Shown here: positions 6,618 through 24,190 of the stretch, one piece after another
How positions within the stretch are numbered: the stretch's first letter is position 1
Layout: each line of letters begins with the position of its first letter
Source of the DNA: a virus
Length of the DNA: 44,122 nt
Reading direction: 5' to 3' (one strand)
Virus record (IMG/VR): IMGVR_UViG_3300046413_001279
Coordinates: 1-44,122 of that record
Program-made: the position numbers and the translations under genes
Notes under the pieces: generated by a model
What the model saw: the letters and a program-made list of their open reading frames with translations, nothing else
Told to the model about the DNA's origin: nothing
Database searches by the model: none

Positions 6618-8264
6618 TTAAATTCCAAGTCCTGATTGAGGTACTCCATTATTTTCATAACCTCTATCTTTAAACTCATCACTATCTTTATCTTCAATAA
6701 TAGTACATTCTGTTAATAAAACTGTACCTGCTACTGAAGCTGCATTTTGTAATGCTAATCTAGTAACTTTAGTTGGATCAATAATTCCTGCTTCCTTATA
6801 ATCTATTACTTTTCCTTCATCAATGTGAATTCCTGCCCAATGATCATTACCTGAATCTACTAGTTTATATTTACCTAGTAATTGTGCTTCAGTTGAATCA
6901 TAACCAGCATTAAGTAATATTTGTTCAAATGGTTTACCACATGCTTTATATACAATCTCAGCTCCAATACTTTCTTTATTTTTAATAGCTTCTCTAGCAT
7001 AAAGTAAAGCAACACCACCACCTGGGAGTATTCCTTCTTCAATTGCAGCTTTTGTAGCATGTAATGCATCATCAACTCTATCTTTTCTTTCATTCATTTC
7101 AGTTTCTGTAAATCCACCTACATGAATAATAGCGACACCACCTACAAATTTAGCTAATCTATTTTGTAACTGTTCAGTTTCATAAGGTGTTTTTGATTTA
7201 TCAAGTTGAACTTTAATTTCTTCAATTCTTGATTCAATTTTTTCAACTTCACCTTTACCATCAACTATAGTAGTTTGTTCTTTTTCTACAGTTACTATTC
7301 TAGCTTCACCAAACCAATCCCAACTAAATTTGTCTAACTTCATTCCTTTATCTTTACTAAATACAGTACCACCTGTAGTAATAGCTATATCTTCTAAGAT
7401 AAGTTTTCTTCTATCTCCAAAATCGGGAGCTTTAACAGCACAAACACTTAATGTACCTCTCATTTTATTAACTATAAGAGTAGCTAATGCTTCATTATCT
7501 ATATCTTCAGCAATTATTAATAAAGATTTACCTTGAGCACCTACTGCTTCTAAAATTGGAAGTAATTCTTTAACTGAAGATAATCTACCATCAACAATAA
7601 GAATAGCAGGATTTTCAAGTACTGAAGTCATATCATTGTTGTTAGTAACAAAATATGGAGATTTATAACCTCTAGCAAATTGCATTCCTTCCACAGTTTC
7701 AATATAATTATCTGCTGTTCTAGATGATTCAATATGAACTACACCTTGTTGACCAACTTTATCTACTGCAGTAGCAATTAATTTTCCTACTTCATTATCA
7801 TTATTAGCTGAAACTGTAGCAATTTGTTCTAATTGATTTTCTTCACCTATATCCTCAGATAATTTTTTCAATTGTGAAACAACTTCTTTTACTGATTGGT
7901 CAATATCTCTTTTGATTTGAACTGCATTTTCTTTATTATCTAGAGCTGTTAAACCATTTTTAATGATTTCTCTAGCCAATAGTGTTGATGTAGTTGTACC
8001 ATCACCAGCCTTATCTGCTGTTTTAATTGCAGCATACTTAACTAATTGAACTCCAAGTTCTTGATTAGTTTCTTTTAATACAATATTTCTAGCAACTGTA
8101 ACACCATCTTTAGTACTTTGAGGTGGGTCAATAATACCCTTACCTATAACAACATTTCTTCCGTTAGGTCCTAAAGTTGAAACTACAGCATCAGCTAAAA
8201 TATCTATACCTTTAATTAAATTTTTTCTGGCTTGTTTGCCAAATTCTACTTTTTTCATAATCAT
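6618..8264 (-). CDS. groL: Chaperonin GroEL (Hsp60)
   Basis: 548 aa, full GroEL length. ATP-site motifs are intact: TLGPNGRNVV (30-39), TKDGVTVA (51-58) and AGDGTTTSTLL (86-96). The hydrolysis aspartate sits in RVDDALHATKAAIEEG, and LPGGGVALL matches the second nucleotide-binding stretch. The usual GGM-rich C-terminal tail is absent; it ends NNGVPQSGLGI. The second ATG (MKKVEFG, 2 codons in) is an equally possible start. Downstream of GroES by 2 nt, so the pair forms a phage-encoded folding chamber, probably for capsid or other phage proteins. Confidence 0.97.
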   Translation of the reverse strand: MIMKKVEFGKQARKNLIKGIDILADAVVSTLGPNGRNVVIGKGIIDPPQSTKDGVTVARNIVLKETNQELGVQLVKYAAIKTADKAGDGTTTSTLLAREIIKNGLTALDNKENAVQIKRDIDQSVKEVVSQLKKLSEDIGEENQLEQIATVSANNDNEVGKLIATAVDKVGQQGVVHIESSRTADNYIETVEGMQFARGYKSPYFVTNNNDMTSVLENPAILIVDGRLSSVKELLPILEAVGAQGKSLLIIAEDIDNEALATLIVNKMRGTLSVCAVKAPDFGDRRKLILEDIAITTGGTVFSKDKGMKLDKFSWDWFGEARIVTVEKEQTTIVDGKGEVEKIESRIEEIKVQLDKSKTPYETEQLQNRLAKFVGGVAIIHVGGFTETEMNERKDRVDDALHATKAAIEEGILPGGGVALLYAREAIKNKESIGAEIVYKACGKPFEQILLNAGYDSTEAQLLGKYKLVDSGNDHWAGIHIDEGKVIDYKEAGIIDPTKVTRLALQNAASVAGTVLLTECTIIEDKDSDEFKDRGYENNGVPQSGLGI

Positions 8265-9520: not shown

Positions 9521-10201
9521 TTATTTTATTTGACCTGGCAATAATTCTGTATCAAAGAAAAACATATGCCATAATCTACCAGACTCAATATCCCACCCAA
9601 AATAATCCTGAGCTGCATGAATACATTTAGCATCAAAAATAACTAATCTATTGTAAACATTTCCTGCAACATCAACATCTTCATAAGGATGAGGATCAAC
9701 AAATGTATGTTGATTAAAAGCATGATCAATATTTTTACCATTTACTGGTTCTTGACTGTGTCTTATTTTAGTTTCTTTATGTTGCATCAATCTTGTACCT
9801 GAAGCAACAGGAGCATTTGGAGTTAAATAAATCATTCCTGCCCACATTTGTTGGTCACAATGGTAAACTAAAGAAGTACCTGAGCTAGCAGATTGGAATC
9901 TTCCATTCATACCATAATCTTCCCACATTTCTCTACCAACAATTTTTGAGCCAATAATCTGTTCAAATCTTTCTTTAACCCCATCAAATAAATATTGTTT
10001 TCTGGTTCTCATACCTAAATAACCTGGGTCATCAAAGTAATATTGTTTTAAGGCAAATTCCCTAATAGCATCTGGATCTTCATAGAAATTGTCTACAATC
10101 CACATTCTAGGTTTTGGTTCAGGATTAGGTTTAAATTCATTAGTATAAATTTGACCCCACTGGCTATCTGGTGCAGAATCTACTCTTTTAATTTTACTCA
10201 T
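9521..10201 (-). CDS. 2OG-Fe(II) oxygenase-like protein (DUF6445-like)
   Basis: 226 aa. The double-stranded beta-helix ligands are visible: H114-C-D116 (YHCDQQMW), distal H195 (KCIHAAQDYFG) and R209 (SGRLWHMFFF) for 2-oxoglutarate. The pattern DQxWAGMIYLTPNAPxxSGTRL is typical of the DUF6445 branch. These enzymes hydroxylate proteins, sugars or bases; the substrate is unknown. It is the first of three oxygenases in the window and lies between the clamp gene and hsp20. Confidence 0.72.
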   Translation of the reverse strand: MSKIKRVDSAPDSQWGQIYTNEFKPNPEPKPRMWIVDNFYEDPDAIREFALKQYYFDDPGYLGMRTRKQYLFDGVKERFEQIIGSKIVGREMWEDYGMNGRFQSASSGTSLVYHCDQQMWAGMIYLTPNAPVASGTRLMQHKETKIRHSQEPVNGKNIDHAFNQHTFVDPHPYEDVDVAGNVYNRLVIFDAKCIHAAQDYFGWDIESGRLWHMFFFDTELLPGQIK

Positions 10202-10957: not shown

Positions 10958-11899
10958 TTATACCTCAAAGGAATCAAATGCATTTATGTAGGGGTTTAAA
11001 TCTAAACTCCATTGTAAATCACTAAAAAATCCTTCTAATTTATTTAATAATATAGATTCAAATACTTTTTGTCTATCAGCATAAGCATTTAAAAATTCCT
11101 TAATCTTATCTGGCATGTCATAATCAAAAAATGCTAGTGCCTCTATTTTATATGGGTTATCTTTTAGATAGATCCATTTAACTTTATCAGCCATAGTAAT
11201 AAGATTATATTTTCTATCTAATTTCCATAATTTAAGTAAATCATTATAACGAATAGCTGCACGAACAGGTGCAGGTGCTCCCTTTAATATTTCAGTAAAT
11301 AATTCTCCAGCTCTAGCTGAATGTCCAGAATATTTTTGTAATTTTTTTACAGCAGTAGGATTACCTAATTTAGTTAATGGTATTTTACCACTAATTATTT
11401 TATGTTTAAAATCCTTAATCTGTTTTATTATATTATCCTTTTTCTCACCCTTTAGAACTTGTTGAAGGATATCGTTGAAAAATTCCCCCAAAATAGGTGG
11501 AAAGTTTGCTTTCATAAACTCTAGACCTTTGATATCCAAGACTTCTTTGTTTATACCTTCTTGCTTTGTAATCCATTGTGCGTATCTTCTTGTTGCCCTG
11601 AAATAAGCTGAACGAATAACACATTCAGTTTTCATTTCAAGTCTGTGATTCGTGACGTTGAAGGTCTCACGAGCTAACCTATTATAATCTTCTGTTATTA
11701 TATCTTGATAAGCTAAAGCTACTTTTTCTAAGTTACCATCTTTTTCTTCATCAGATAAATTTTCAAAATTAGGAAATAAATGTAAAAGTATTGGTTCAGC
11801 ATTAAAGTAATTTGAGTCTGTATCCACATAAGCACAATAATTTGTGTCTTCTTTATCGCAAATAAACCAAGGTGTTTCTTCTAAATGCTTCATTTCCAA
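10958..11899 (-). CDS. 43: DNA polymerase gp43, C-terminal part (split gene)
   Basis: 313 aa containing the second half of a family B polymerase: motif C YVDTDS (24-29) with the catalytic aspartates, then palm and thumb (KTECVIRSAYFRATRRYAQW; APAPVRAAIRYNDLLKLW). The extreme C-terminus INAFDSFEV resembles the hydrophobic clamp-binding tail of RB69 gp43. It lacks the exonuclease domain and motifs A and B, which are encoded by a separate gene at 13132-14835. The two pieces must associate to work. It overlaps the upstream sulfotransferase gene by 10 nt, and the clamp gene follows. Confidence 0.88.
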   Translation of the reverse strand: MEMKHLEETPWFICDKEDTNYCAYVDTDSNYFNAEPILLHLFPNFENLSDEEKDGNLEKVALAYQDIITEDYNRLARETFNVTNHRLEMKTECVIRSAYFRATRRYAQWITKQEGINKEVLDIKGLEFMKANFPPILGEFFNDILQQVLKGEKKDNIIKQIKDFKHKIISGKIPLTKLGNPTAVKKLQKYSGHSARAGELFTEILKGAPAPVRAAIRYNDLLKLWKLDRKYNLITMADKVKWIYLKDNPYKIEALAFFDYDMPDKIKEFLNAYADRQKVFESILLNKLEGFFSDLQWSLDLNPYINAFDSFEV

Positions 11900-12510
11900 C
11901 TATCTTTATTATAGTTACCTAATTTAAAAATTATATTATCTTTTTCATAAATAAAATCAGCTATTTCCTGATCCATAAATCTAGTAACTTTTTGATGTCC
12001 ATTATCATCATATTCATCTAATGGTTTTTCTCCAGCTACTGAATTATGTAATATTTGAGGTTTAATTTTTTCCCAATTTTTAATATTATTAATAAATTGA
12101 GGAATACTTTCCCAATCCTCAGCTATATGTTCCAATCTAATAAAATAATCTGGAACAGCCAAGTCTTTCCATTCATACCAATAAAACATATCTAAATCAT
12201 CAGGATAATTTTTATATCTATGTTCATAACAATATTCTTTAAAATCAAAAGTAGCACCATCTGCCCTTAAATCAATATAAGCTGATACTGCTCTAGTATA
12301 AGGATTTCTAATAGAACAAATGATTTGATAATCTTCACAACCTGGAGGGATGCCTTGATCATGTAAAAATTGTCCAAATTTTTCTTCTTTTTCTTCCCAA
12401 GGATAATAAACGTATCTATCTCCTAAACTATCAAAAGCAGCTAAATTACTTCTACTGGCACAGCCAGCAGTAGCCCAATAAATTAAACCATGTTCTTTAT
12501 TATAGTTCAT
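11890..12510 (-). CDS. Sulfotransferase-like P-loop protein
   Basis: 206 aa. The opening IYWATAGCASRSNL (10-23) fits the 5'-phosphosulfate loop of PAPS-dependent sulfotransferases, and CSIRNPYTRAVSAYIDL (about 65-81) fits the 3'-phosphate motif R-x-P-x-x-R-x-x-S. This is the Sulfotransfer_2-type layout. The expected reaction moves sulfate from PAPS to a hydroxyl or amine, often on carbohydrate. It sits between the two polymerase pieces and overlaps both neighbours by 10-11 nt, so it is part of one transcript. Confidence 0.72.
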   Translation of the reverse strand: MNYNKEHGLIYWATAGCASRSNLAAFDSLGDRYVYYPWEEKEEKFGQFLHDQGIPPGCEDYQIICSIRNPYTRAVSAYIDLRADGATFDFKEYCYEHRYKNYPDDLDMFYWYEWKDLAVPDYFIRLEHIAEDWESIPQFINNIKNWEKIKPQILHNSVAGEKPLDEYDDNGHQKVTRFMDQEIADFIYEKDNIIFKLGNYNKDSWK

Positions 12511-12871
12511 ATTCTTTTACATCAAGATAATCACTTCCAGTTACAAGATTAATATCATTTTTAAGATCATTCCTTTCTTCATTTAATTCAAATATTTTTC
12601 TTGAAGCTTTTATAAATTCCTTATCTTTAATTTTTTTATTTCTTACTATATTTTCTAAATCCCATAACATTCCATTAATACGAGCTAAATTTAAATATAA
12701 CATTTGAAGCGAGCTATCATTTTTAGTAAATAAACTAACACATTTAGGGTTTAGCTCTAAAAATTCTCTTTCTACCGCAGCTAATTTAGCTGAATCTTCT
12801 ACTCTAAGTTTTTTTAACTCTAAAATAGAAATTCTATCTAATAACTCACCATTTGAAATTTTTATCTTCAT
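12500..12871 (-). CDS. DUF6165-like helical protein
   Basis: 123 aa. The N-terminus KISNGELLDRISILELKKLRV matches the DUF6165 opening (I-S-x-G-E-L-x-D-K-I-x-I-L-E-x-K), and the rest is helical (LYLNLARINGMLWDLENIVRN...). In bacteria this family is often found with glycosyltransferase and surface-polysaccharide genes; its biochemical role is unknown. Next to a sulfotransferase it suggests a glycan-related cargo placed inside the polymerase locus. It overlaps the sulfotransferase gene by 11 nt. Confidence 0.6.
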   Translation of the reverse strand: MKIKISNGELLDRISILELKKLRVEDSAKLAAVEREFLELNPKCVSLFTKNDSSLQMLYLNLARINGMLWDLENIVRNKKIKDKEFIKASRKIFELNEERNDLKNDINLVTGSDYLDVKEYEL

Positions 12872-13135
12872 CTAAAATCTTGTATCACCTGGGATTTTAA
12901 TTACAGGTCCAGGTTTTTTACCTTGTGAATCCCTTAAAGGGCTATCTAAATCAATTTGAAATGTTACATTATTTATTTTAAATCTAAATACTCCTTGTTT
13001 TAGAAATTTTTTAAATGCTTTTTCTTGTTTTTCAGACCAAAGTTCACTCATAGTAATTAACTCTTCTTTACTGATAGTTTCCCCATTTGCTATAATATGC
13101 ATATTTTTTCTAATAGATTGTTTTTTTAATGTCAT
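12872..13135 (-). CDS. Hypothetical 87-aa protein next to gp43 N-terminal part
   Basis: 87 aa, basic. Helical centre ITMSELWSEKQEKAFKKFLKQG followed by a strand-rich FRFKINNVTFQIDLD and a proline/glycine tail. No family recognised. Its ATG overlaps the stop of the polymerase N-terminal gene by 4 nt, so translation is coupled to it. There are no LAGLIDADG, GIY-YIG or HNH motifs, so it is not a recognisable homing endonuclease. Confidence 0.5.
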   Translation of the reverse strand: MTLKKQSIRKNMHIIANGETISKEELITMSELWSEKQEKAFKKFLKQGVFRFKINNVTFQIDLDSPLRDSQGKKPGPVIKIPGDTRF

Positions 13136-14835
13136 ATGTTTAATTTAATTTCATTTCTTATTACTTTATTCATATGCTTATTTGCACATAAAGCAGATTC
13201 TTGAATAATTCTGTGACCAGATAAAGTAATTGCTTCACTTAATATAGATTCTGGTAATCCATATCTAAATCCAGGTAATGCTGTAGCACCATATAAACTA
13301 TTAAGCAAAATTTTCATTGTATATTGCATTAAATAATAATAATCCCCCATTACTTTATCTCCTGATTTAAATGCTTTTTTCATTTTGTTTTTGTAATCAA
13401 CTCTTTCATCAAACCATTTATTTAAAACAGTTGATAATGTTGATTCTTTTTCAGTTGAAAAAATAGAACCATTAGCAGATATTGAAAAATTATTTTGTTC
13501 AATCATTGCCACTAATCTACCAACATTAACTCTAGTAGATTTATCTTTAGAATTTCTAATTAATAATTCTTCTTCAGGATCACGTTTTTTTAAATCGTTA
13601 AGACCCAATCTATTATTACGGTCATCTGCATCAATAATACGCCCTACAAAAGTTTCTCTACCTATGTTTAAAGACATAATTATAGATGGATACAGCGATG
13701 TTAAATCCTCATCAAACATATATTTGTACAATCCAGCTTTGGGGCAAAACAAATAACCCCCAGCATATCCTTTTTTAGCTTTAGGGTTAGCATGTCTAGC
13801 AGGTGGAATAATTCCTTGTGATAATAAGTAAGCTGATATAGCTCCATCTTGTGTAACACTATTAGCATATACTTCACTATAATTATGTTTACCCTTATGT
13901 GATAGATTTTTAGTTAAAGCAATATATTGAAGTTTTTCATCTAATAACTTTAATATCTCAACATCACGGAAGTTATATTGGATAAATTTATGTATATCAG
14001 ATTCAAATAATTGATCTAAATTACCTTCATATTCTACTTTACCTATACCAGTATATTTTTCTCCAATAGCATCTAATTTCCAACTAGGCTCATCTTTCCA
14101 ACTGTACTTTTTATGTAAACGAATATAATCTAAAGATTCAACTCCAATTATATCTACAAACTGATTACGTTTAAAGAAATATTCATTATTCTTTTTTGCA
14201 TTAACTTTACCAATTGGTGATAAATGATCAGCCCAATCTTTACCTAATACATTACACATTCTATAATATAAATAAGGTATATCAAAGAAATCACTATTAT
14301 AACCTATTAAAATGTCAGGATCAATTTCTCTAAACTTTTCTAAAAATTTACCTAATAATTCACTTTCTGTTTTACAAGGTATAATTTCTTTATTTTTAGC
14401 TTTAGTATGATTTAATTCTGATTTTTTATCTAAAATTAAAATAGACCACCAATCTTCTTGTTTATCCCACCAAGCTATAGAAGTAATAGGCATTGGAGCA
14501 CTTTCAATATATTCCTCGGTTAAGGCGCCTCCAATTTCACACTCGATATCAAAAAATAATTCTTTATGGCTTGTAGAAGGTTCATCAGCAGTACCATATC
14601 TTTCAACAAGATATTTTTGATGAGGTTTCATATCATGAAAATGTAAATTAGGTGTATTTCTATCCCAATTTGTTGTTTTCTTTAATTTTTCCCCATTAAT
14701 ACCTTTTAAATCACCTTCATTATCTTCTACATAAGAAGCATTATACCAAATAATTTCATCGTACCCAATGTCATCCCAAAGAAATACTTTGTATTTATTA
14801 TCTTTTATTTTTTGGGTATAACACTTTTTATACAT
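13132..14835 (-). CDS. 43: DNA polymerase gp43, N-terminal part: exonuclease plus palm/fingers (split gene)
   Basis: 567 aa. The 3'-5' exonuclease motifs are intact: Exo I FFDIE (94-98), Exo II NSDFFD (180-185) and Exo III YNFRD (287-291). Polymerase motif A is DLTSLYPS (377-384), and motif B is KILLNSLYG (508-516). The frame stops about 50 residues after motif B, before motif C, which lies in the gene at 10958-11899. Full T4 gp43 is 898 aa; the two parts sum to 880, so nothing essential seems missing. Three other genes (1,232 nt) separate the parts. Confidence 0.93.
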   Translation of the reverse strand: MYKKCYTQKIKDNKYKVFLWDDIGYDEIIWYNASYVEDNEGDLKGINGEKLKKTTNWDRNTPNLHFHDMKPHQKYLVERYGTADEPSTSHKELFFDIECEIGGALTEEYIESAPMPITSIAWWDKQEDWWSILILDKKSELNHTKAKNKEIIPCKTESELLGKFLEKFREIDPDILIGYNSDFFDIPYLYYRMCNVLGKDWADHLSPIGKVNAKKNNEYFFKRNQFVDIIGVESLDYIRLHKKYSWKDEPSWKLDAIGEKYTGIGKVEYEGNLDQLFESDIHKFIQYNFRDVEILKLLDEKLQYIALTKNLSHKGKHNYSEVYANSVTQDGAISAYLLSQGIIPPARHANPKAKKGYAGGYLFCPKAGLYKYMFDEDLTSLYPSIIMSLNIGRETFVGRIIDADDRNNRLGLNDLKKRDPEEELLIRNSKDKSTRVNVGRLVAMIEQNNFSISANGSIFSTEKESTLSTVLNKWFDERVDYKNKMKKAFKSGDKVMGDYYYLMQYTMKILLNSLYGATALPGFRYGLPESILSEAITLSGHRIIQESALCANKHMNKVIRNEIKLNI

Positions 14836-15373
14836 TATCTATTTCTTGTTGTGTAAAAAATTTACGTAAATTGGGTTTAAAATAGTTAATTGATTTCATT
14901 ACTTTTTTGTCTCTCGTTCTGTAGACAATATACCTTCCTTCCTCAAGTTTCTCAAAATGGCAGGCCTCACCTTGTTCCTCACTTCGAACCCTGACGGTAT
15001 CCAAGGCTTCTTTTTCAGATTTGCAAGCTTTTGACATATTAGATGCTTGTACTTCTTGATATGCAGGCCATATCTTATCTTTAAGGCCGTGTAACATAGT
15101 ACCGTTCCCAATGGAAACGTAAGCAATATCGCACAAAGCGTCCAAAACCTCCACGATGTCTCCTCTTTCGCAAGCTTCCTTATATTCTTCAAGTTCTTCA
15201 AGGATGAAGTCATAAACGAACTTCCATTCCTTTTTTTCTGGTATTGTTGTTTCATAATTGTTTGGTTTGCCAAATGTGGCATTAAATATTTCTACTTCGT
15301 CTACGAAAGGTACCGACGGAGATGCAGGTACTTCGTAGTTTAATTCATCAAAAATTGTTAATTGTTTAGTCAT
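14828..15373 (-). CDS. MazG-like NTP pyrophosphohydrolase
   Basis: 181 aa. The metal-binding pattern EELEEYKEACERGD-x-x-E-x-x-D-A-L-C-D (about 57-79) has the E-x-x-E and E-x-x-D helices of the MazG/phosphoribosyl-ATP pyrophosphohydrolase superfamily, followed by IAYVSIGNGTMLHGL. It would hydrolyse a nucleoside triphosphate to the monophosphate, to clean pools or lower alarmones. Base composition differs from its neighbours (GC-richer, for example 14940-15200), suggesting recent arrival. It overlaps the polymerase gene by 8 nt. Confidence 0.75.
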   Translation of the reverse strand: MTKQLTIFDELNYEVPASPSVPFVDEVEIFNATFGKPNNYETTIPEKKEWKFVYDFILEELEEYKEACERGDIVEVLDALCDIAYVSIGNGTMLHGLKDKIWPAYQEVQASNMSKACKSEKEALDTVRVRSEEQGEACHFEKLEEGRYIVYRTRDKKVMKSINYFKPNLRKFFTQQEIDNV

Positions 15374-15854
15374 TATTACTTATTTTTTTCCACCAGGATG
15401 TTTTTTCACTACCTCGTGGCATGCTTAATCCTCCAATATAATTAGCATCTCCCAGATGCTCAAATTCTTTTAAATAATCAGGTAATGCTTCTGAATCTTT
15501 TCTTTCCCAAGGATAAACAATCCATTCTGGGCCAACTTCTTTAGCATAAAAAGTGGGTTTAAATTTTGAAGATGATTTATGATGTAACACAGCATGATAT
15601 CTTCCTGGTGCATTACTTAATGTTTCTCCTGTATCATTAATATCATCTACAATTATAGTATTATTTTCAGGTTCAAATACTAAAGGTATACCCAATTCAT
15701 GAGAAATTAATACTGCTGGTATTAATCCTCCTCTTGGTAATCCCATAACTGAATCTATATTAGGATAATCCATGAATATTGTTCTACTTAAAATTTGTAT
15801 ACAATCTATTATCTCATCCCAGTCTAGATATACTTTAGATATTGTGTCCCCCAT
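15366..15854 (-). CDS. Purine-type phosphoribosyltransferase
   Basis: 162 aa, type I PRTase fold. GLPRGGLIPAVLISHELGIP (about 38-57) is the strand and loop after the hood, and NTIIVDDINDTGETL (about 64-78) is the PRPP-binding loop. The later EWIVYPWE resembles bacterial xanthine/guanine PRTases. It would join a purine (or possibly a deazapurine) base to PRPP. It overlaps FolE by 20 nt and MazG by 8 nt, so it is co-expressed with the 7-deazaguanine entry enzyme; a role in guanine salvage for that pathway is inference. Confidence 0.75.
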   Translation of the reverse strand: MGDTISKVYLDWDEIIDCIQILSRTIFMDYPNIDSVMGLPRGGLIPAVLISHELGIPLVFEPENNTIIVDDINDTGETLSNAPGRYHAVLHHKSSSKFKPTFYAKEVGPEWIVYPWERKDSEALPDYLKEFEHLGDANYIGGLSMPRGSEKTSWWKKISNND

Positions 15855-16524
15855 TATTTATTTTTAAACTATCAAAAAATTCTTTTCTAGCTAAATTATC
15901 ATTATCTCTAAATACTCCTGTTGCTTTAGTTGTAACCATGGCTGCTCCTTGATGTTTAACTCCTCTACAACTTACACAATTATGTGTACCTACAATAGTA
16001 ACAATAACACCTTTATTATTTTCACAAATTTTATCCACAGCATTATGAATAGCTGATGTTAGTTGTTCTTGAATTGCTCCCCTCCTTCCAAACAATTCTA
16101 CTATTCTATTTAATTTAGATAATCCAATTACTCTACCATTATCCCCAACAACATATCCAACATGAACTACACCTCCAATTGTTTGGTGGTGATGAGAACA
16201 CATTGAAGTTAACGGTATATTTCGTTCTATAACAATACCATCATAACCATCTGATGGAAATGATGTAATTGGAGACATCTGTGTGTATCTACCAGCCCAT
16301 AAATCATTTACATATGCTTTAGCTACTCTGTGAGGTGTATCAGCTGAATTAGGATCGTTTTGCCAATCACACTTTAATGCTTCTAAAAACCTGGCATAGG
16401 CCTTAGTAGCTTTATTAATCATTTTCTGTTTTTCTTTATCATTTAGAGGAAAACCAGGTGCAACTCCATTTGCAAAACCTTCTTGTACTACTTCTAAATC
16501 TGTATGTTGTTTTTTTCTTGCCAT
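15835..16524 (-). CDS. folE: GTP cyclohydrolase I (FolE)
   Basis: 229 aa. Zinc and catalytic residues are present: CSHHHQTIGG (C109, H111-H113) and HNCVSCRGVKHQGAAMVTT (C183, C186, H191). The family turns GTP into 7,8-dihydroneopterin triphosphate, the first step of both folate and 7-deazaguanine synthesis. With QueD, QueE and QueC in the same region, the latter is the likely purpose. A TATATTA box sits 5 nt before the ATG, so the gene probably starts its own transcript with the PRTase and MazG genes. Confidence 0.95.
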   Translation of the reverse strand: MARKKQHTDLEVVQEGFANGVAPGFPLNDKEKQKMINKATKAYARFLEALKCDWQNDPNSADTPHRVAKAYVNDLWAGRYTQMSPITSFPSDGYDGIVIERNIPLTSMCSHHHQTIGGVVHVGYVVGDNGRVIGLSKLNRIVELFGRRGAIQEQLTSAIHNAVDKICENNKGVIVTIVGTHNCVSCRGVKHQGAAMVTTKATGVFRDNDNLARKEFFDSLKINNGGHNI

Positions 16525-16529
16525 AACTG

Positions 16530-16539
16530 TAATATAATA
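16530..16539 (-). promoter_or_regulatory. TATATTA promoter-like box, 5 nt from the folE ATG
   Basis: Minus strand TTTATTATATTACAGTTATG. It matches the 6599 site in the last bases (TATATT-x-x-x-GTTATG). The gap before folE is 35 nt and entirely AT-rich. Confidence 0.5.
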
Positions 16540-16559
16540 AAATTTTTAATTAACTCCAA

Positions 16560-17171
16560 CTAATTTGCATATTGAAGCCATGTTGTTAAAATGTATTTAT
16601 CATCCGATTCTGGCATATATCCTTTATGAATATAAGGCCAACTAGCTGGGTGGATGATTAATTTACCCAGTGAAGGTTTTACTTTATAAAAATCTTTACC
16701 TTCTTTAAATAAAAATCCAGTTTCACCTCCCTTATCTACATCATTTAAATAAAGAATATAAACAAATTGTCTAATTGATGATTCTAAATTTTCTTTTTCT
16801 ACATGCCAAGCATTATAATGACCTGATCCTTTGTCATATTTTTGGATTTGTAATAAAGGATAATATGTTTTATCTTCTACAATCATATTATGACGATAAA
16901 GATCATGATGAGGAAAATTATTTAAATAAGTATCTGTATACTGATTAAATCTTTCCATAACAAAATTAGATAAATTATCATCACTAGTATTATTTTGATT
17001 TAAAATATTATAATCATTGCTTTTTTTATATTCATTTATACCACCATCACCACTCATACCTTTATATGATAATCCCTCATTATGAACAGTTTCAAACCTG
17101 TCAATTAGTAATTGACATTCAAAGGGTGTAAAAGCTTTTTTGTATACTCCTATTGTATCTTTAAATTTCAT
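16560..17171 (-). CDS. 2OG-Fe(II) oxygenase, prolyl-4-hydroxylase-like
   Basis: 203 aa. Iron ligands H123-x-E125 (AWHVEKEN) and H182 (YIHKGYMP), plus K192 (DDKYILTTW) for 2-oxoglutarate, fit the P4H branch. Glutamate replaces the usual aspartate in H-x-D, which is unusual for an active hydroxylase. GGETGFLF is the typical loop between the ligands. Substrate unknown. It is 35 nt downstream of the folE start region's opposite end and close to queE; overlap with the 66-aa gene is 11 nt. Confidence 0.75.
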   Translation of the reverse strand: MKFKDTIGVYKKAFTPFECQLLIDRFETVHNEGLSYKGMSGDGGINEYKKSNDYNILNQNNTSDDNLSNFVMERFNQYTDTYLNNFPHHDLYRHNMIVEDKTYYPLLQIQKYDKGSGHYNAWHVEKENLESSIRQFVYILYLNDVDKGGETGFLFKEGKDFYKVKPSLGKLIIHPASWPYIHKGYMPESDDKYILTTWLQYAN

Positions 17172-17361
17172 TTAAATATTCTTTTAATTTATCAATTAAT
17201 ACTAATACCTCATCAGGTTCCATTGTGATTGCACAACAAACCCCTACATTTTCTTCAATTTCTTCTAAGATTTCTAATGCTTCTTCTCTAGACACATCTT
17301 TCAGTGTTAAATGCCATGATATGAGAACGGCCTGTAAATCTCCATCCTTTATCTCTAACAA
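17161..17361 (-). CDS. Hypothetical 66-aa protein overlapping queE
   Basis: 66 aa, acidic and helical (REEALEILEEIEENV, then EVLVLIDKLKEYLNEI). It starts inside queE: the overlap is 74 nt in another frame, much longer than any other overlap here. A GTG in the codon run GAT-GTG-TCT near 17295 would give a 44-aa product with almost no overlap. The C-terminal part is thus more certain than the first 22 residues. No family recognised. Confidence 0.45.
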   Translation of the reverse strand: MLEIKDGDLQAVLISWHLTLKDVSREEALEILEEIEENVGVCCAITMEPDEVLVLIDKLKEYLNEI

Positions 17362-18070
17362 AATTCATAACAGGACCATAAGATTCCATTAAGCTTTCCC
17401 TATCATCTCCAGCAGGCATAGCCCAAACTTTATCTTTTGGTATTTTACATTCATTAAGAAATTCTTCTACTTCACTAACCATAGATAATTTATTATCCAA
17501 TACAGGTTTAATGTGGTAATCATCATGATATTCAATAGATTGTTTTATTGCTTCAATATTTAATCTTTTTGAATTATGTTTCTTAACCATCTTTTCATCA
17601 ACTACAGCTCCTTGAGGTGTTACCGCGCCAATAACTGGCACGCTATTACTAAATTTAGGGCTAATAGATAATAAATTAATAGGGTAGTCTGTTGGGAGAA
17701 AGTGACTCCCTTCAGTTTCGATAGTAATAAAAATATCGTTTTCATGTGCAAAATGTGTTAATTCATTAACCAAAGCAGGATGCATTGTAGGCGATCCTCC
17801 TGTTAACATCATCTCTTTTATATGAGGATGTTCATTGTACATATCAATAATGTCTTGAAAACAAAATGTACCCTTTTCTGGGTGTATACTAGTATACCAA
17901 GAATCACACCACCCACCTTCTCCAAAGTAGCATCTATGTGTGCATCCTGATGTTCTAACTACGATTGTTGGGTAACCTTGTCTTGACCCTTCTGATTGTA
18001 CTGCAGTGTATAATTCTAATACACCTAGTGTTTTTTGATAGTCTTCTATCCTTTTTAATTGTTTGTGCAT
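17288..18070 (-). CDS. queE: 7-carboxy-7-deazaguanine synthase QueE
   Basis: 260 aa radical-SAM protein. LELYTAVQSEGSRQGYPTIVVRTSGC is the QueE-type start (substrate loop VQSEG, R39). The Fe-S cysteines are C43, C47 and C55, that is C-x3-C-x7-C rather than the usual C-x3-C-x2-C. LTGGSPTMHP (90-98) is the SAM-contact strand, and the C-terminus GWRFTGRSHIMAFN is QueE-like. It converts 6-carboxy-tetrahydropterin into CDG. It lies 44 nt downstream of queD. Confidence 0.88.
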   Translation of the reverse strand: MHKQLKRIEDYQKTLGVLELYTAVQSEGSRQGYPTIVVRTSGCTHRCYFGEGGWCDSWYTSIHPEKGTFCFQDIIDMYNEHPHIKEMMLTGGSPTMHPALVNELTHFAHENDIFITIETEGSHFLPTDYPINLLSISPKFSNSVPVIGAVTPQGAVVDEKMVKKHNSKRLNIEAIKQSIEYHDDYHIKPVLDNKLSMVSEVEEFLNECKIPKDKVWAMPAGDDRESLMESYGPVMNFVRDKGWRFTGRSHIMAFNTERCV

Positions 18071-18114
18071 ATTGTTAATTTTTTAAAGTGGTTTTTCATT
18101 CACTAATAACCTAT

Positions 18115-18579
18115 TTACTCGCTATAATAAGCGGCATTTTTTCCATGTTCCGCAAACTTAACTTTAGTAACTCTTACTCTTCCATCTGTTTCCGTCGTTA
18201 CGAATTCATTAAGCTTGTTATAAATATATTCAGCAAATTTTTCCGCGCCAGTTGCTTCAATAACTCTAACTTGAGCTACGCCTGCAGTATCCATCATTCT
18301 AAATGCTTGCAATTCAGGATCATCTTCTGCTATAACCATAGTATGATCAAACATATAATCCATCCATTCTTTAGGAGATAAACCATCTATTTTAGTTTTA
18401 GCTCTTTTCATTCCACCAAAATCCCAAACCCAGTTTCTATGATCTAAATCACCTTCAAAGTATACTTTAAATGAAATACCATAACCATGTACAAATCTAC
18501 AATGTGTATCTGTTGCTTTCCATTGACGAAACACTGTACTAAATCCGTCAAAAACTTTACTTGATTGAAATTTACCCAT
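18115..18579 (-). CDS. queD: 6-carboxy-tetrahydropterin synthase QueD (divergent metal site)
   Basis: 154 aa of the 6-pyruvoyl-tetrahydropterin synthase family. C27 and H31 of the catalytic CxxxHGH stretch are present (CRFVHGYG), but H33 is tyrosine and the first zinc histidine (in the FxAAHR motif) appears as phenylalanine at about 17 (STVFRQ). WVWDFGGMKRAK, then FDHTMVI and the distal glutamate in KFAEHGKNAAYY are as in the family. It would turn dihydroneopterin triphosphate into CPH4 for QueE. Overlaps thioredoxin by 8 nt. Confidence 0.82.
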   Translation of the reverse strand: MGKFQSSKVFDGFSTVFRQWKATDTHCRFVHGYGISFKVYFEGDLDHRNWVWDFGGMKRAKTKIDGLSPKEWMDYMFDHTMVIAEDDPELQAFRMMDTAGVAQVRVIEATGAEKFAEYIYNKLNEFVTTETDGRVRVTKVKFAEHGKNAAYYSE

Positions 18580-18823
18580 TATACCATTCTTTAATTTCTT
18601 CTGGTCTAGCTAGACCTACTAATCTTTCTCCTAGTTGATTTCCATTTCCATCAACTTTAATTAGTGTTGGGACACTCCTAACACTATATCTTAATGATAA
18701 CTCACTATCCTCATCAACATTAACTTTTTGATAAGGTAATTGGCTACCTAAACCTTCCATAATAGGACCTAATGCTTTACAAGGTCCACACCAAGGAGCG
18801 GTAAAATAAAGTACTTTACTCAT
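18572..18823 (-). CDS. Thioredoxin
   Basis: 83 aa, short for thioredoxin (about 105) and closer to phage glutaredoxin/thioredoxin size. It has the WCGPCK active site (11-16) and the cis-proline motif SVPTLIKVDGNG, then GLARPEEIKEWY. The product could reduce the phage ribonucleotide reductase encoded at 28154-30854. It sits in the que operon, 8 nt overlapping queD. Confidence 0.93.
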   Translation of the reverse strand: MSKVLYFTAPWCGPCKALGPIMEGLGSQLPYQKVNVDEDSELSLRYSVRSVPTLIKVDGNGNQLGERLVGLARPEEIKEWYNG

Positions 18824-18841
18824 AATATTAATTTTAATTTG

Positions 18842-19048
18842 TTATACTAATTCTTCTACGATACCTATAATCTCCGACAATATAAGAATCCCTACTGCAA
18901 CCTCCAAGTTAAATAGCAGAAGAAAATATCCTCCTAATCTTATACCCGATTTTATAAAACTTACTATTTTATGCCATTTTTGATTTGGCATATGATCTAA
19001 GTTTTCTCTTTCTTTTATAATTCCATCCATATCTTTTATTTTTATCAT
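18842..19048 (-). CDS. Small membrane protein, 68 aa
   Basis: 68 aa with a charged N-terminal half (about 1-30) and one long or two short hydrophobic helices (GIRLGGYFLLLFNLEVAVGI, then LILSEIIGIV). A lysine-rich HKIVSFIKS lies just before the membrane segment. No family recognised. Its ATG overlaps the stop of the upstream 63-aa membrane protein by 4 nt, so the two are translated together and may form a complex. Confidence 0.55.
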   Translation of the reverse strand: MIKIKDMDGIIKERENLDHMPNQKWHKIVSFIKSGIRLGGYFLLLFNLEVAVGILILSEIIGIVEELV

Positions 19049-19236
19049 TTTTTTCCGTTTTTTTTATAATCAATCACAAATCCTACTCCCACTAATATGT
19101 TTAATCCTAAACTAGCTAATATTTCATGTATATCCTGATAAACATTTAAACTTAAATGAATATGTCCAATAATCCAAAAGGGGATAGCCATTTGTTGACT
19201 ATACCATATTAAAGCAAATTCTATAAATTTTTTCAT
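19045..19236 (-). CDS. Small membrane protein, 63 aa
   Basis: 63 aa with two predicted hydrophobic segments: FIEFALIWYSQQMAIPFWII (about 4-23) and ILASLGLNILVGVGFVIDY (about 39-57), ending in a basic KKNGKK. The orientation rule predicts a cytoplasmic C-terminus. No family recognised. Co-translated with the following 68-aa membrane protein. Confidence 0.55.
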   Translation of the reverse strand: MKKFIEFALIWYSQQMAIPFWIIGHIHLSLNVYQDIHEILASLGLNILVGVGFVIDYKKNGKK

Positions 19237-19241
19237 AATTA

Positions 19242-19937
19242 TTAATCAAACCAACCTGTAAACCCAATTCTTTTGTTATTACAACCTTGACTTACTTCAG
19301 TTACCATATGAGGGTTTCCTGGTTTACCATTTAAAACTGTATCAAAAACAACTAAAGAATCAAATGGTGGTACAATAGCTTTTATAAGGTTATGATCCCA
19401 ATCTAATTTACAAAATAACCCTCCATTTTGTACCCCCCAATCTTTAGATAAATGATAAACAAATGCAATTCTCCCATTTGGTCCATCAGTATGAACACCA
19501 TTATAATGTCCACTTGAATATCTAGAAGTAAAACAATTTTCTGGGTTTAAGTTTGTATTCTTATAACCTGTACATTTTGAAATATAATCAAAAAATTTAG
19601 GATTAAAAAATAAATTTTCTATTAAAGGGTGAAAATGATTATCATTTCGTTCATAACAATAAGAAAATCCTTCTTGATTTCTTACATTATAGATATGATT
19701 AATTCTTTTTTGTAAATCAGGAGCATCTTTTTTAATATATGGAATATAATATTCTTTATGCTCTACTAAATCTGGGTAGACTGCTAAATCCCAAGGTACA
19801 TCATCATAAAAATAATACTCCCATATTGTATTAGCACTTTCTCCAAATAAATTAGTTAATTCAAACATACCATGTTTATCCCACTCTTCTTTTACTAAAG
19901 TTGGTTCCGGTAAATTGAATTTTATATTATAATCCAT
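19242..19937 (-). CDS. 2OG-Fe(II) oxygenase (prolyl hydroxylase-like)
   Basis: 231 aa. Ligands H149-T-D151 (YNGVHTDGPNGRIAFVYHL), H210 (NPHMVTEV) and R223 (KRIGFTGWF) with the GGLF loop and PPFDSLVVFDT strand match the double-stranded beta-helix hydroxylases of the Tpa1/EGL-9 type. A 90-residue helical N-terminal domain precedes. It follows the two tRNA-type genes by 15 nt. Substrate unknown. Third oxygenase of the window and the one with the most regular motifs. Confidence 0.78.
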   Translation of the reverse strand: MDYNIKFNLPEPTLVKEEWDKHGMFELTNLFGESANTIWEYYFYDDVPWDLAVYPDLVEHKEYYIPYIKKDAPDLQKRINHIYNVRNQEGFSYCYERNDNHFHPLIENLFFNPKFFDYISKCTGYKNTNLNPENCFTSRYSSGHYNGVHTDGPNGRIAFVYHLSKDWGVQNGGLFCKLDWDHNLIKAIVPPFDSLVVFDTVLNGKPGNPHMVTEVSQGCNNKRIGFTGWFD

Positions 19938-19951
19938 ATTTCTTTTTTAGT

Positions 19952-20094
19952 TACCCAGACAGGACTCGAACCTGTGACCTCCTTGACCTCTTTGCTTTTC
20001 ACGATCGTATCTATTACGAGTTTCACTTTTACGTATAAGTTACTTCTCCGCGCCGAGTTAAGCCAAAGCGAGCTACCTACTGCTCTACTGGGTT
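19952..20094 (-). tRNA. tRNA-like element with expanded anticodon arm
   Basis: The minus strand has a 5' half with acceptor ACCCAG, TA, D-stem GAGC/GCTC with loop AGTAGGTA, and CTTTG as the start of an anticodon stem. The 3' half has CAAAG, AGGTC, and a perfect T-arm ACAGG-TTCGAGT-CCTGT followed by CTGGGT, which pairs with ACCCAG. Instead of a 7-nt loop, about 66 nt separate CTTTG from CAAAG; inside are small hairpins (ACTT/AAGT, TCGTA/TACGA). The variable region is 14 nt with a repeated AGGTC. No anticodon can be assigned. No CCA is encoded. Degenerate tRNA, unusual intron or a tRNA-like RNA are all possible. Confidence 0.55.
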
Positions 20095-20096
20095 TG

Positions 20097-20169
20097 TTGG
20101 CTCGCTAGGGATCGAACCTAGACTCTTCTGGACCAAAACCAGACGTGTTGCCAGTTACACCACGAGCCA
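20097..20169 (-). tRNA. tRNA-Gln (TTG)
   Basis: Full cloverleaf: acceptor TGGCTCG/CGAGCCA, anticodon stem TCTGG/CCAGA with loop TTTTGGT (anticodon TTG at the middle), T-arm CTAGG-TTCGATC-CCTAG. Discriminator A; the CCA end is not encoded. The AA codon CAA fits the AT-rich genome. It lies 6 nt after queC and so is probably cut from a long mRNA that begins near 22480. Confidence 0.95.
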
Positions 20170-20175
20170 AGCCCT

Positions 20176-20970
20176 TTATGCTGAATAATCAGCTAAGACC
20201 TTTGCTACAGAATCTCTAGCTACTTCCCAAGCCACTGGACCAGTTTCGTCTTCATATTGAACGGGATCTGGACGATCCAAAGCAATAAACGCTTCAATTC
20301 TTTCAACAGATGAAGCAGACTTATAATCACTGTTCCCACTAGGATAAGGCTTATAACTAGTATTAGTTCGAGAATAGACTTCATTAAAATCGAGTTCTAA
20401 AATTTCACATAAATACTCCCCATTTTGAAGTATCCCTAACTTGTCTGTATCGAGATAAGGTGTAAAATACCCTACCCTTTCAGCATCCCAATTACCGACT
20501 CTAAATGCATTATCATCTGCATCTCTAAATTCTTGTCTACAATCAGGGTAAATAGCATGATCACCAGCATGTATCCCTAAACAAATATCTACTTTTTCCT
20601 CTGTAGCATTTGCTTTAGATAAAGCAACGGCTTGAGTAATAGAAGCAAACATTTTATTTCTATTGGGTACTACTGTTTCTTTCATATTATCTTGCTCATA
20701 ATGTCCTTCTGGAACATCATCACCACCTTGAACAAGGGCAGAATTTAATAAATCAACTAAACCATCAAGTTTAATTTGTTTATAAGTTACATTGTGACCT
20801 TTACTAGCCAGATAATCTATAAGAGACTGTGCTCTTTCCAATTCAACTCTATGTTTTTGACCATAGTCAAATGATAAAGCTGTAACTGAATCATACTCAG
20901 ATAACGCTCTGAGAAGAAGTGTGGAACTATCCATTCCTCCACTTAACGAAACAACTGCATGTTTATTCAT
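20176..20970 (-). CDS. queC: 7-cyano-7-deazaguanine synthase QueC family, without the zinc cysteines
   Basis: 264 aa. The PP-loop SLSGGMDSS (8-16) binds ATP, and ALSFDYGQKHRVEL plus GIHAGDHAIYPDCRQEF match QueC. The C-terminal region where QueC has four zinc cysteines (SCY...CGxCxxC) reads TNTSYKPYPSGNSDYKSASS, with serine at each likely place, then VERIEAF as in the family. QueC converts CDG via ADG to preQ0. Loss of the zinc site may alter stability or stop at ADG. It follows the DpdA-like gene by 14 nt. Confidence 0.88.
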   Translation of the reverse strand: MNKHAVVSLSGGMDSSTLLLRALSEYDSVTALSFDYGQKHRVELERAQSLIDYLASKGHNVTYKQIKLDGLVDLLNSALVQGGDDVPEGHYEQDNMKETVVPNRNKMFASITQAVALSKANATEEKVDICLGIHAGDHAIYPDCRQEFRDADDNAFRVGNWDAERVGYFTPYLDTDKLGILQNGEYLCEILELDFNEVYSRTNTSYKPYPSGNSDYKSASSVERIEAFIALDRPDPVQYEDETGPVAWEVARDSVAKVLADYSA

Positions 20971-20984
20971 AATAATTAAAAATA

Positions 20985-21821
20985 TTAAAGTGACCCGGTA
21001 TGTTCCGGATAGGGCCTAAATCCGTTTTCTATTTTTTTAAATCCATTAATCTCTCTAAATACTGTTGTATTATGCAATATATCTTCATATTGTATATCTT
21101 CAAATTTAGTATCAAAATGATCATTCATATTTGCCTTAGGTTTTTTATTTAATCCATTATCCCAAAGTAAATTACCTTCTAATGCTGCCATTATTGGGTT
21201 AGAGGTATCAATTGATTCTATTCTTGGGTTATTATCATACCACCCAAATTCTTGTGGTATTGAACATCCTAATAAATGAAAGTTAACATCTTTAAGATGA
21301 TCTAAAGCTAATAATCCTTGTACAAATCTTATTCTACCTAATGCTTTACCCATATCTGGGTTAGTATGTGGGAAGAAATCATTATACCATGTTGCTCCAT
21401 AAGAAACACATAATTTTTTATAACCTAAATTAGATAATAGGTTAGCACATAAATATGCATCATTTTTATCTTTACCTTGAATTACGGCAGTTATTTTTGT
21501 TTTTTTAGGATATTTAAATTGCTTCCAATATTTAGCCTGAGCTGCTGTTTGGTGTCCTTCCATCCAAACATCAGGAACAATAAATTCATTTGGCTTTAAT
21601 TCCCCAACCCAATGTAATAATCTTTTATGGTCATATGCTTCTCCTAATTCATGAAGTGAATTATCCATAATAACATATCTACCTTTATCTCTAGCATCAA
21701 TAAAATATTGTTTATATTCATCATCTTGATCTAACAAATGAGGTAAACAATAGTCATAATCATTAAATTCAGGTGATGCTGTTAAAAGACATCTAGGTAC
21801 TTCATGTGATATTTTAGGCAT
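20985..21821 (-). CDS. dpdA: DpdA/TGT-like DNA base transglycosylase
   Basis: 278 aa, TIM-barrel pattern of tRNA-guanine transglycosylases and phage DpdA. YVIMDNSLHELG (49-60) fits the D-S/N base-recognition strand, FIVPDVW (80-86) the next acidic strand, AVIQG (112-116) the Q-G strand, and HLLGCSIPQEF...ESIDTSNP (182-209) the nucleophile strand with D205. The CxCxxC zinc site of TGT is absent. Expected action: swap guanine in DNA for a 7-deazaguanine. Adjacent queC and nearby folE, queD and queE supply the base. The family assignment is from motifs only. Confidence 0.75.
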   Translation of the reverse strand: MPKISHEVPRCLLTASPEFNDYDYCLPHLLDQDDEYKQYFIDARDKGRYVIMDNSLHELGEAYDHKRLLHWVGELKPNEFIVPDVWMEGHQTAAQAKYWKQFKYPKKTKITAVIQGKDKNDAYLCANLLSNLGYKKLCVSYGATWYNDFFPHTNPDMGKALGRIRFVQGLLALDHLKDVNFHLLGCSIPQEFGWYDNNPRIESIDTSNPIMAALEGNLLWDNGLNKKPKANMNDHFDTKFEDIQYEDILHNTTVFREINGFKKIENGFRPYPEHTGSL

Positions 21822-22317
21822 ATTTTTTAGGACGACCGCGTTTTGATATTATTAATTTTTTTCTATATTTGTCTTCTACAATATAATAAAGATCTATCAA
21901 TTCTCCACGACATTTTAAAGCTTCTTCTTCTACTTGACTTCTATCAATATTAAAATATTTTCTAAAATGAGAATATAAATTATCTAATTTGTTATTTTCA
22001 TCATTTTCATAATCCTCTAGTAATCGTTTTCTTCGAGCTCCTAATAACTTTGATTTCTCTAAATATTTTTGGATGTCTGGGTAGCATTCTTCATGAATTT
22101 CATTCAACATATGTTCACATAACCATGCTTGCCATTGATAACCAGAAGGATCAAAATCACCATTAAAAATTTTATCACGAAAATCTGCTTTATAAGGTAA
22201 TGGTGTATTTTTATCTTGATACCATCTCCACCACCTAAACTTATTATAATTTATCTTTTGATAATTTTTGTTTAGATGTCTTTCTATTTTTTTTCGACTA
22301 AATGGAACATTAAACAT
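21814..22317 (-). CDS. Hypothetical 167-aa protein with C-terminal AT-hook-like motif
   Basis: I use ATG at 22317 (MFNVPFSRKK), 1 nt after the stop of the 44-aa gene, instead of a GTG 9 nt earlier. The protein is basic, aromatic-rich near the start (RWWRWYQDK) and helical, and it ends in SKRGRPKKYA, an AT-hook-like core R-G-R-P that binds the minor groove of AT-rich DNA. No known family. It overlaps the DpdA-like gene by 8 nt, so translation is coupled. A DNA-binding partner of the transglycosylase is the natural guess. Confidence 0.6.
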   Translation of the reverse strand: MFNVPFSRKKIERHLNKNYQKINYNKFRWWRWYQDKNTPLPYKADFRDKIFNGDFDPSGYQWQAWLCEHMLNEIHEECYPDIQKYLEKSKLLGARRKRLLEDYENDENNKLDNLYSHFRKYFNIDRSQVEEEALKCRGELIDLYYIVEDKYRKKLIISKRGRPKKYA

Positions 22318-23089: not shown

Positions 23090-24190
23090 TTAATAAGTTT
23101 TTGTATTTTCGTCGTCTCTTAATTTTCTTAATTTTTTTGATATTTTTTGTCTATCATTTTCATGGGCTGTATAAGATGCCATGTTATCTAATTTTTCTTC
23201 TAATTCTCTAATTTCTAATTCTTTATCATAATGTTCTCCCTCATTTCCATTTTGCCCTATTACATCCATCCTTTTTTCATCTTCATCTGTATATTCCCAA
23301 TTAGTATGTTTAGCTTGTTCTTCTAAAGTTGCTCCTTCTTCTACGGTTTCTCCATATAAATTTTCCTTATATTTTTTTTTAGGATAAGCTTGATTAAAAG
23401 CAAAGTTAGCAGCTATTACTAACGCTACAGCTAAAGGATCAAATACAAAAATTATTACTAAAAGTAACACATTTATAATTTTATCCATAGGATAACCCGT
23501 GAGTCCTGATAAATACTTTAGTGGACCTAATTCACCAGCTACATCGGCGTTATTATCTAACTCCAGCACTTTTTGTTGATAAGTACGTAATGAATCTACT
23601 GCAATATCTCTTTTTATATTGACATTTTCCCGTTTATCTTCTTCAATTCTGAGTCTATCTTGTGCAGCACGTAAGTCAACCGTGGAAATCGTATTTCGAA
23701 CGCCTCCAACCACACTGGTGTCCTTGACTTGGATTGAAACGGATCTCGTTTCATTAAGAGAAGTAATATTGTCCAAAGTTTGTTGAAGTTCTTTTTCATA
23801 TCTGTCTACATCTTGTTGATAAAATTCTATTTTTTGATTTAAAAATGCTTTTTCATTATCAACATAAGTTAATTTATTAAATGTTTCTTGATATGCTGAT
23901 GATAGAAAACCATAAATACCCATACTAGTAATTAATATTAGTATAACTACGGCAACACTTAAATAATATTTTAATACTTTATTAATTGTGCCCCAATACT
24001 GATAAAGTAATGAAGCAGTAACTAATTTAGCTATTTCTAAAGAACCAGCCATTATAATAACTTCAGTACTTGCTCCCGCAAATAATTTACTTAAACCAAA
24101 AACCGAATAAAAAGCTGCAGATGCAGATACTGATAGCGCAGAAAACGCCACCAGGAATGGAAACATCCCTTTTTTAATTGTGCTAAACAT
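23090..24190 (-). CDS. Multi-span membrane protein with periplasmic or cytoplasmic coiled coil
   Basis: 366 aa. Hydrophobic spans at about 10-32 (MFPFLVAFSALSVSASAAFY), 42-64, 74-97 (YYLSVAVVILILITSMGIYG) and 238-262 (INVLLLVIIFVFDPLAVALV). Between spans 3 and 4 is a coiled coil of about 110 residues (NEKAFLNQKIEFYQQDVDRY...). The C-terminal 100 residues are acidic and helical. I do not recognise a named family. A TTCGTATATTG box (24213-24222) 22 nt upstream gives it its own promoter. Codons near 23640-23770 are GC-richer than the rest. Could be a superinfection-immunity or lysis-control membrane protein; no direct evidence. Confidence 0.65.
   Translation of the reverse strand: MFSTIKKGMFPFLVAFSALSVSASAAFYSVFGLSKLFAGASTEVIIMAGSLEIAKLVTASLLYQYWGTINKVLKYYLSVAVVILILITSMGIYGFLSSAYQETFNKLTYVDNEKAFLNQKIEFYQQDVDRYEKELQQTLDNITSLNETRSVSIQVKDTSVVGGVRNTISTVDLRAAQDRLRIEEDKRENVNIKRDIAVDSLRTYQQKVLELDNNADVAGELGPLKYLSGLTGYPMDKIINVLLLVIIFVFDPLAVALVIAANFAFNQAYPKKKYKENLYGETVEEGATLEEQAKHTNWEYTDEDEKRMDVIGQNGNEGEHYDKELEIRELEEKLDNMASYTAHENDRQKISKKLRKLRDDENTKTY

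Follow-up and report, generated by a model that had tools for sequence, protein, structure and literature searches.

Among the Campylobacter phages of the CP220 group (Firehammervirus CP220 and relatives), dG is reportedly replaced completely by 2′-deoxy-7-amido-7-deazaguanosine (dADG), as Crippen and colleagues are said to have described in 2019. In Escherichia phage CAjan and Mycobacterium phage Rosebush, a set made of FolE, QueD, QueE, QueC and DpdA yields 2′-deoxy-7-cyano-7-deazaguanosine (dPreQ0) without further enzymes, and only about 30% of G is modified (PMC6884629). Such modification requires DpdA, which confers resistance to restriction in CAjan (PMC6884629). The present analysis concerns a module of this known kind in the IMG/VR virus record IMGVR_UViG_3300046413_001279, which derives from a marine virus of bacteria and was studied over its whole length of 44,122 nucleotides (44 kb, 30% GC; hereafter, the window). 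As judged from sequence and structure models, the module very probably serves to synthesise a 7-deazaguanine base and to place it in the DNA of the phage itself. Its variant gene make-up is widespread in viral contigs.

With CAjan and Rosebush, the window shares the same minimal set, devoid of amidotransferase or QueF (PMC6884629). However, the DpdA of CAjan is of another subfamily, and a phosphoribosyltransferase of the window family was not found in that phage. Flavobacterium phage immuto (MW353175), a 160-kb myophage, resembles the window by its DpdA (33% identity), its zinc-less QueC (67%), a same-family phosphoribosyltransferase near folE (54%) and MazG. It differs by the presence of QueF and of a formyltransferase beside dpdA, and by the position of QueC, about 15 kb away. 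In CP220 and relatives, the DpdA (38%), FolE, QueE, QueC and a same-family phosphoribosyltransferase are found again, but the genes are scattered over the genome and QueC has kept its zinc cysteines. Finally, Quinobequin-P09 (Queuovirinae) and Sphingomonas phage MMDA13 carry a homologous phosphoribosyltransferase with its phosphoribosyl pyrophosphate (PRPP) and WxxxPW motifs kept. In these two phages, unlike in the window, it is fused to FolE, and an amidotransferase-QueC or a QueF-like protein is present; moreover, the DpdA of Quinobequin lies outside the window subfamily. The replication genes of the window and of immuto share about 70% DNA identity. Since these genes match those of a 160-kb phage, the window probably represents only part of a larger genome, that of a Bacteroidota phage.

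A first, sequence-only reading of the window had described a compact set of preQ0 genes with a DpdA-like gene and an AT-hook gene. The enzymes were correctly named, and every module gene is on the - strand, at or close to the coordinates then given. The extent was underestimated, as the module also comprises a phosphoribosyltransferase, MazG, two oxygenases, a thioredoxin and a tRNA-Gln. In the order of transcription, one finds the gene of a 167-aa protein, dpdA, queC, tRNA-Gln, oxygenase B, two small open reading frames (ORFs), thioredoxin, queD, queE, a 66-aa ORF, oxygenase A, folE, the phosphoribosyltransferase and MazG, then DNA polymerase B. The folE and phosphoribosyltransferase genes overlap by 20 nt, those of the phosphoribosyltransferase and MazG by 8 nt. 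This gene order is kept in the majority of the 80 IMG/VR loci closest to the window and also in more distant ones; such a recurrence is therefore not due to chance. The main features are the following:

21814..22317, - strand: 167-aa helical protein with C-terminal AT-hook (RGRPKK) (model and homologs)
20985..21821, - strand: dpdA, predicted DNA guanine transglycosylase of the immuto/CP220/phiST subfamily (fold model, active-site residues, profile)
20176..20970, - strand: queC, preQ0 synthase (PF06508, 2.2e-38)
18115..18579, - strand: queD, 6-carboxytetrahydropterin synthase (PF01242, 8.7e-14; phrog_2389, 1e-38)
17288..18070, - strand: queE, radical SAM 7-carboxy-7-deazaguanine synthase (phrog_2076 'QueE-like', 3.3e-46)
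15835..16524, - strand: folE, GTP cyclohydrolase I (PF01227, E=1.5e-42)
15366..15854, - strand: xanthine/guanine-type phosphoribosyltransferase (NCBIfam xanthine phosphoribosyltransferase, 6e-10)
14828..15373, - strand: MazG-type nucleotide pyrophosphohydrolase (family match)

A predicted DNA base exchanger and its subfamily

The 278-aa protein encoded at 20985-21821 has no significant match in Pfam or NCBIfam. It strongly matches a PHROG family labelled as of function unknown (phrog_19058, 1.8e-41), and among its homologs the annotation 'DpdA' is found in immuto phage only. An AlphaFold model was built on an alignment of 50 viral-contig relatives (mean pLDDT 89.9). In the comparison with solved structures, this model is best matched by 7ui4, a structure of the DNA preQ0 insertase DpdA (E=1.5e-6; TM-score of 0.53 relative to query length); dozens of tRNA-guanine transglycosylases (TGTs) come next. 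The TGT-type barrel anticipated by the sequence-only reading is therefore supported by structure prediction. The motif series D53, Q-G and D205, on which that reading relied, is also real: D53, D84, Q115-G116, G185 and D205 show no variation among relatives, even in Chryseobacterium phage MA9V-3, where identity falls to 22%. They come in the same order as the active-site set of Zymomonas TGT (D102, D156, Q203, G230, D280), and a residue-by-residue equivalence to the TGT catalytic set may in part be inferred from this order of motifs. In a PDB sequence search, no significant DpdA match was obtained; the HLLG...SIDxxxP motif of the 278-aa protein aligns with the DNA-guanine transglycosylase 7ui4, at an E-value (0.2) that is not significant alone. 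Comparison by hhalign of the window DpdA profile with the DpdA of MMDA13 and of Quinobequin gave no meaningful alignment, and the link between DpdA subfamilies comes from structure comparison only.

The 278-aa protein is accordingly best described as a predicted DpdA-type DNA base exchanger. After replication, an aspartate nucleophile of DpdA would cut the guanine-sugar bond, the 7-deaza base would be put in and free guanine would be released. The likely benefit to the phage would be resistance to host restriction enzymes and to other guanine-reading nucleases.

A tblastn search against 50,697 phage records retrieved a DpdA homolog in only 20 of them, from Campylobacter phages of the CP220 group, immuto, MA9V-3 and Weizmannia phage Youna2. 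A subfamily profile, A2, which includes immuto, CP220 and MA9V-3 as members and from which Cellulophaga phage phiST was left out, independently finds phiST (E=2.7e-44), and nothing in CAjan, 9g, nt-1, Dp-1, HVTV-1 or Quinobequin. By sequence comparison, the window protein belongs to a DpdA subfamily common to immuto, phiST and the Campylobacter firehammerviruses. This subfamily presumably corresponds to the 'DpdA3' of Cui and colleagues, a name that we use as a lead and not as a test. These authors are said to have named such enzymes in 2023 and to have tied them to complete guanine replacement. The Campylobacter homolog of the window DpdA is the CP220 protein CPT_0056; in 2019, Hutinet et al. 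listed the Campylobacter phages as lacking DpdA though highly dADG-modified (PMC6884629). With the present loci, the subfamily, so far known from few isolates, now includes a large set of viral contigs as well. The same DpdA family also occurs in contigs (L138-L147) binned as Legionellales, Pelagibacter, Winogradskyella, Spirochaetia and Rhodobacteraceae metagenome-assembled genomes (MAGs); most likely, these bins contain phage contigs.

Precursor enzymes and the nature of the base

Curated profiles identify all four enzymes of the preQ0 pathway, FolE, QueD, QueE and QueC, in agreement with the sequence-only reading. With GTP as starting material, these enzymes would produce preQ0 as a free base, QueC passing through ADG as an intermediate. 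Canonical QueC combines a C(x)8CxxCxxC zinc motif with several catalytic motifs (PMC13329287). The QueC of the window clade, like that of immuto, has intact ATP and substrate motifs, retaining SGGMDS, YGQKHxxE, VPNRN and YPDC together with the essential Tyr189, but all four zinc cysteines are replaced (TSYK...SDYKSASS). When relaxed patterns are used, SGGxDS and YxQxH are found in 123/123 loci, VPxRN in 121 and YPDC in 116. The replacement pattern is present in 109 of these 123 loci, several others having slight variants or truncated sequences, and the zinc motif in only 5. Two close relatives, L063 (7462-8199) and L066 (5757-6494), possess a zinc-type QueC just downstream of dpdA, at 30% identity, which resembles the QueC of L146, a contig from a Rhodobacteraceae MAG. 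Because the zinc-type enzyme replaces the zinc-less one in place, this suggests that both do the same job. No report of a zinc-free QueC was found in the literature searched, which does not prove that none exists; the loss of the zinc site is apparently an undescribed twist, and it offers a natural zinc-free enzyme for mechanistic work.

QueD and QueE also show particularities. In QueD, the motif differs from the canonical CxxxHGH, since the Cys and the first His are kept and HGH becomes HGY. Upstream, GHR becomes FRQ, and the same variant (FRQ...THC...HGY) is found in immuto, MA9V-3 and L146. In QueE, the cluster motif is Cx3Cx7C, unlike the textbook motif.

What base would be made? The sequence-only reading had remarked that the window holds no QueF gene. 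Taken alone, this absence means little because the window is probably a fragment; it is strengthened by the relatives, as neither QueF (PF14489) nor a formyltransferase (PF00551) was found in 16 of them having contigs of 58-164 kb. The PF14489 search does find the QueF of immuto, which serves as a positive control; the immuto QueF used as a query also gave nothing in the relatives, the control applying to the Pfam search only. This absence in 16 long relatives places dPreQ0 first and dADG second. Strictly, the remark of the first reading that sequence does not reveal the final base still holds, and the choice is now narrowed. By analogy with CAjan and Rosebush, dPreQ0 would be the most likely product, with chances somewhat better than even, and dADG would come as a distinctly less probable one. 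Replacement could concern most of the dG or even all of it, given that the closest characterised relatives are of the total-replacement type.

If derivatives are counted in, the final base could be dADG or a form of it further oxidised by 2-oxoglutarate (2OG) oxygenases, the mechanism being otherwise unchanged. We hold this for possible and rather unlikely. Such a product would be in line with the dADG reported in the CP220 group, whose DpdA is related to that of the window, and with the location of oxygenase A, within the module wherever it is present. It is disfavored by the strong resemblance of the window QueC to that of immuto, whose product would have to be preQ0 in order to feed QueF, and by the rarity of the oxygenases, A being found in 10 loci and B in 2.

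A few considerations weigh against the proposal that the module produces and inserts a 7-deazaguanine base, in particular dPreQ0. A QueC without zinc site and a QueD with altered metal-ligand positions may not be active. The reported base of CP220 is dADG and not dPreQ0. The presence of QueF in immuto means that the final base varies in the wider group. Finally, the phage may have later tailoring genes that a probable fragment such as the window does not include.

A phosphoribosyltransferase next to folE

Three elements had been overlooked in the sequence-only reading: the loss of the QueC zinc site, the widespread clade of immuto-related viral contigs and the phosphoribosyltransferase gene. 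Besides its NCBIfam match, the product of this gene matches the purine phosphoribosyltransferases 4trb, 1vdm and 1a95 in the PDB. Its RGG, DDxxDTG and WIVYPWE motifs are intact, and R-G-G, D-D...D and W...P-W are invariant in 7 divergent members of the family. Of 71 loci in which DpdA and FolE occur together, 65 also encode a phosphoribosyltransferase, and in 58 of these its gene is no more than 100 nt from folE. In 5 of the 6 others folE is at a contig end, and the enzyme is truly absent only in MA9V-3. The 71 loci are partly close relatives and these counts are not independent; independent recurrence is for this reason better evidence. Several loci have, in the same place, a distinct type of enzyme, a hypoxanthine-guanine phosphoribosyltransferase (HGPRT; TIGR01203, E-values down to about 1e-43). 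A narrow profile had missed 13 FolE loci, of which 7 have the HGPRT-type enzyme and 5 end at a contig edge. The widened profile made use of L107 and L142, themselves HGPRT-like, and the type was checked separately with NCBIfam. Furthermore, in Queuovirinae and in MMDA13, FolE bears a homologous domain as an N-terminal fusion, and in 27 of the 52 phage records matching the window phosphoribosyltransferase, the match lies inside an annotated GTP cyclohydrolase. A member of the window family also exists in phiST, as in CP220. None was found in CAjan, 9g, nt-1, Dp-1 and HVTV-1; in those of these phages tested by mass spectrometry, 0.02% to about 32% of G is replaced (PMC6884629).

The phosphoribosyltransferase probably belongs to the modification system. 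In the simplest reading, it would salvage the guanine released by DpdA, using PRPP to form GMP, which would return to GTP, the substrate of FolE. Fusion to FolE, which consumes GTP, is more in keeping with such a salvage than with a function in the final step of the pathway. A link of a phosphoribosyltransferase to 7-deazaguanine modification was not found in the literature searched, which is no proof of absence, and the guanine-recycling gene is apparently another undescribed twist. Recovery of guanine is a likely missing component of the pathway and could help to explain how guanine is massively replaced without draining the GTP pool. It may be imagined that heavy-replacement 7-deazaguanine phages carry a recycling loop, in which the guanine released by DpdA is converted to GMP and GTP and enters the next preQ0, here with a zinc-free QueC; for this wider idea, we see the chances as evenly balanced.

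Another model, which we regard as improbable, is entry at the nucleotide level. In this case, the phosphoribosyltransferase would make a 7-deazaguanine nucleotide, then reduced, phosphorylated and incorporated by the polymerase, and DpdA would be secondary. The tight linkage of the phosphoribosyltransferase and MazG to folE could be understood in this way. However, no dedicated kinase is linked to the module, the fused phosphoribosyltransferase joins FolE, the first step of the pathway and not the last, and the DpdA-like protein anchors the cluster with a complete TGT-type active site. The modification of Campylobacter phages, initially taken as DpdA-independent (PMC6884629), could have been a precedent, but their DpdA homolog went unrecognised in 2019. 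Still less probable is a role towards host tRNA, in which the genes would raise queuosine precursors for a DpdA-like tRNA transglycosylase: the barrel is common to TGT and DpdA and some phages have Que genes without DpdA (PMC6884629), but the top structural match is a DNA enzyme, DpdA homologs occur in phages with modified DNA, the module adjoins a DNA polymerase, and the only tRNA, tRNA-Gln(ttg), has no GUN anticodon and is not a queuosine tRNA.

Accessory genes and surroundings of the module

The 167-aa gene starts at the ATG at 22317 and overlaps the start of dpdA by 8 nt (ATGCCTAA); the sequence-only reading had described the two genes as translationally coupled. In 119/120 loci, a homolog is encoded no more than 2.5 kb from dpdA, directly next to it in 66 of them, and in 95 an AT-hook-like RGRP or KGRP is found close to the C-terminus. 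The model of the protein is helical and confident (pLDDT 89.6); a fold search with it against the PDB gave no match. No relative was found among the 50,697 phage records, and the protein was not found in immuto, CP220 and MA9V-3. It is therefore not essential to this DpdA type, and is clade-specific. Speculatively, it would be a candidate partner helping to load DpdA on DNA.

The other features of the module are:

20096..20169, - strand: tRNA-Gln(ttg) (Rfam)
19242..19937, - strand: 2OG-Fe(II) oxygenase B, accessory, rare (family match)
18842..19048, - strand: 68-aa ORF, kept between queC and thioredoxin in relatives
18572..18823, - strand: thioredoxin, adjoining queD in relatives
17161..17361, - strand: 66-aa ORF, kept between queE and folE in relatives
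16560..17171, - strand: 2OG-Fe(II) oxygenase A, accessory (about 10 loci, within the module)

A tailoring role of oxygenase A is possible because its gene sits within the module, and the thioredoxin might possibly act as a reductant. The Rfam scan of the window returned a tRNA only.

Several observations concern the rest of the window. DNA polymerase B looks split (10958-14835), with an N-terminal part at 13132-14835, a C-terminal part at 10958-11899 and small ORFs between them; in L142, it forms a single frame of about 895 aa. An intron or a mobile element is possible, and Rfam found no intron. A Cpn60/GroEL-type chaperonin is encoded at 6618-8264 (PF00118, 2e-61), GroES/GroEL being present in immuto too. 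At the window edge (173-2922) are two tandem GT4-type glycosyltransferases, one of which weakly matches a 'GT4-conflict' family. The DUF6445 protein at 9521-10201 (PF20043, 5e-8) is possibly a third 2OG-oxygenase-like protein. A 27-nt inverted repeat copy (93%) links the module (19276-19302) to the far end of the window (42778-42804). Finally, a 366-aa protein with apparent membrane segments and no Pfam family, encoded here at 23090-24190, occurs near the DpdA module in 118 loci.

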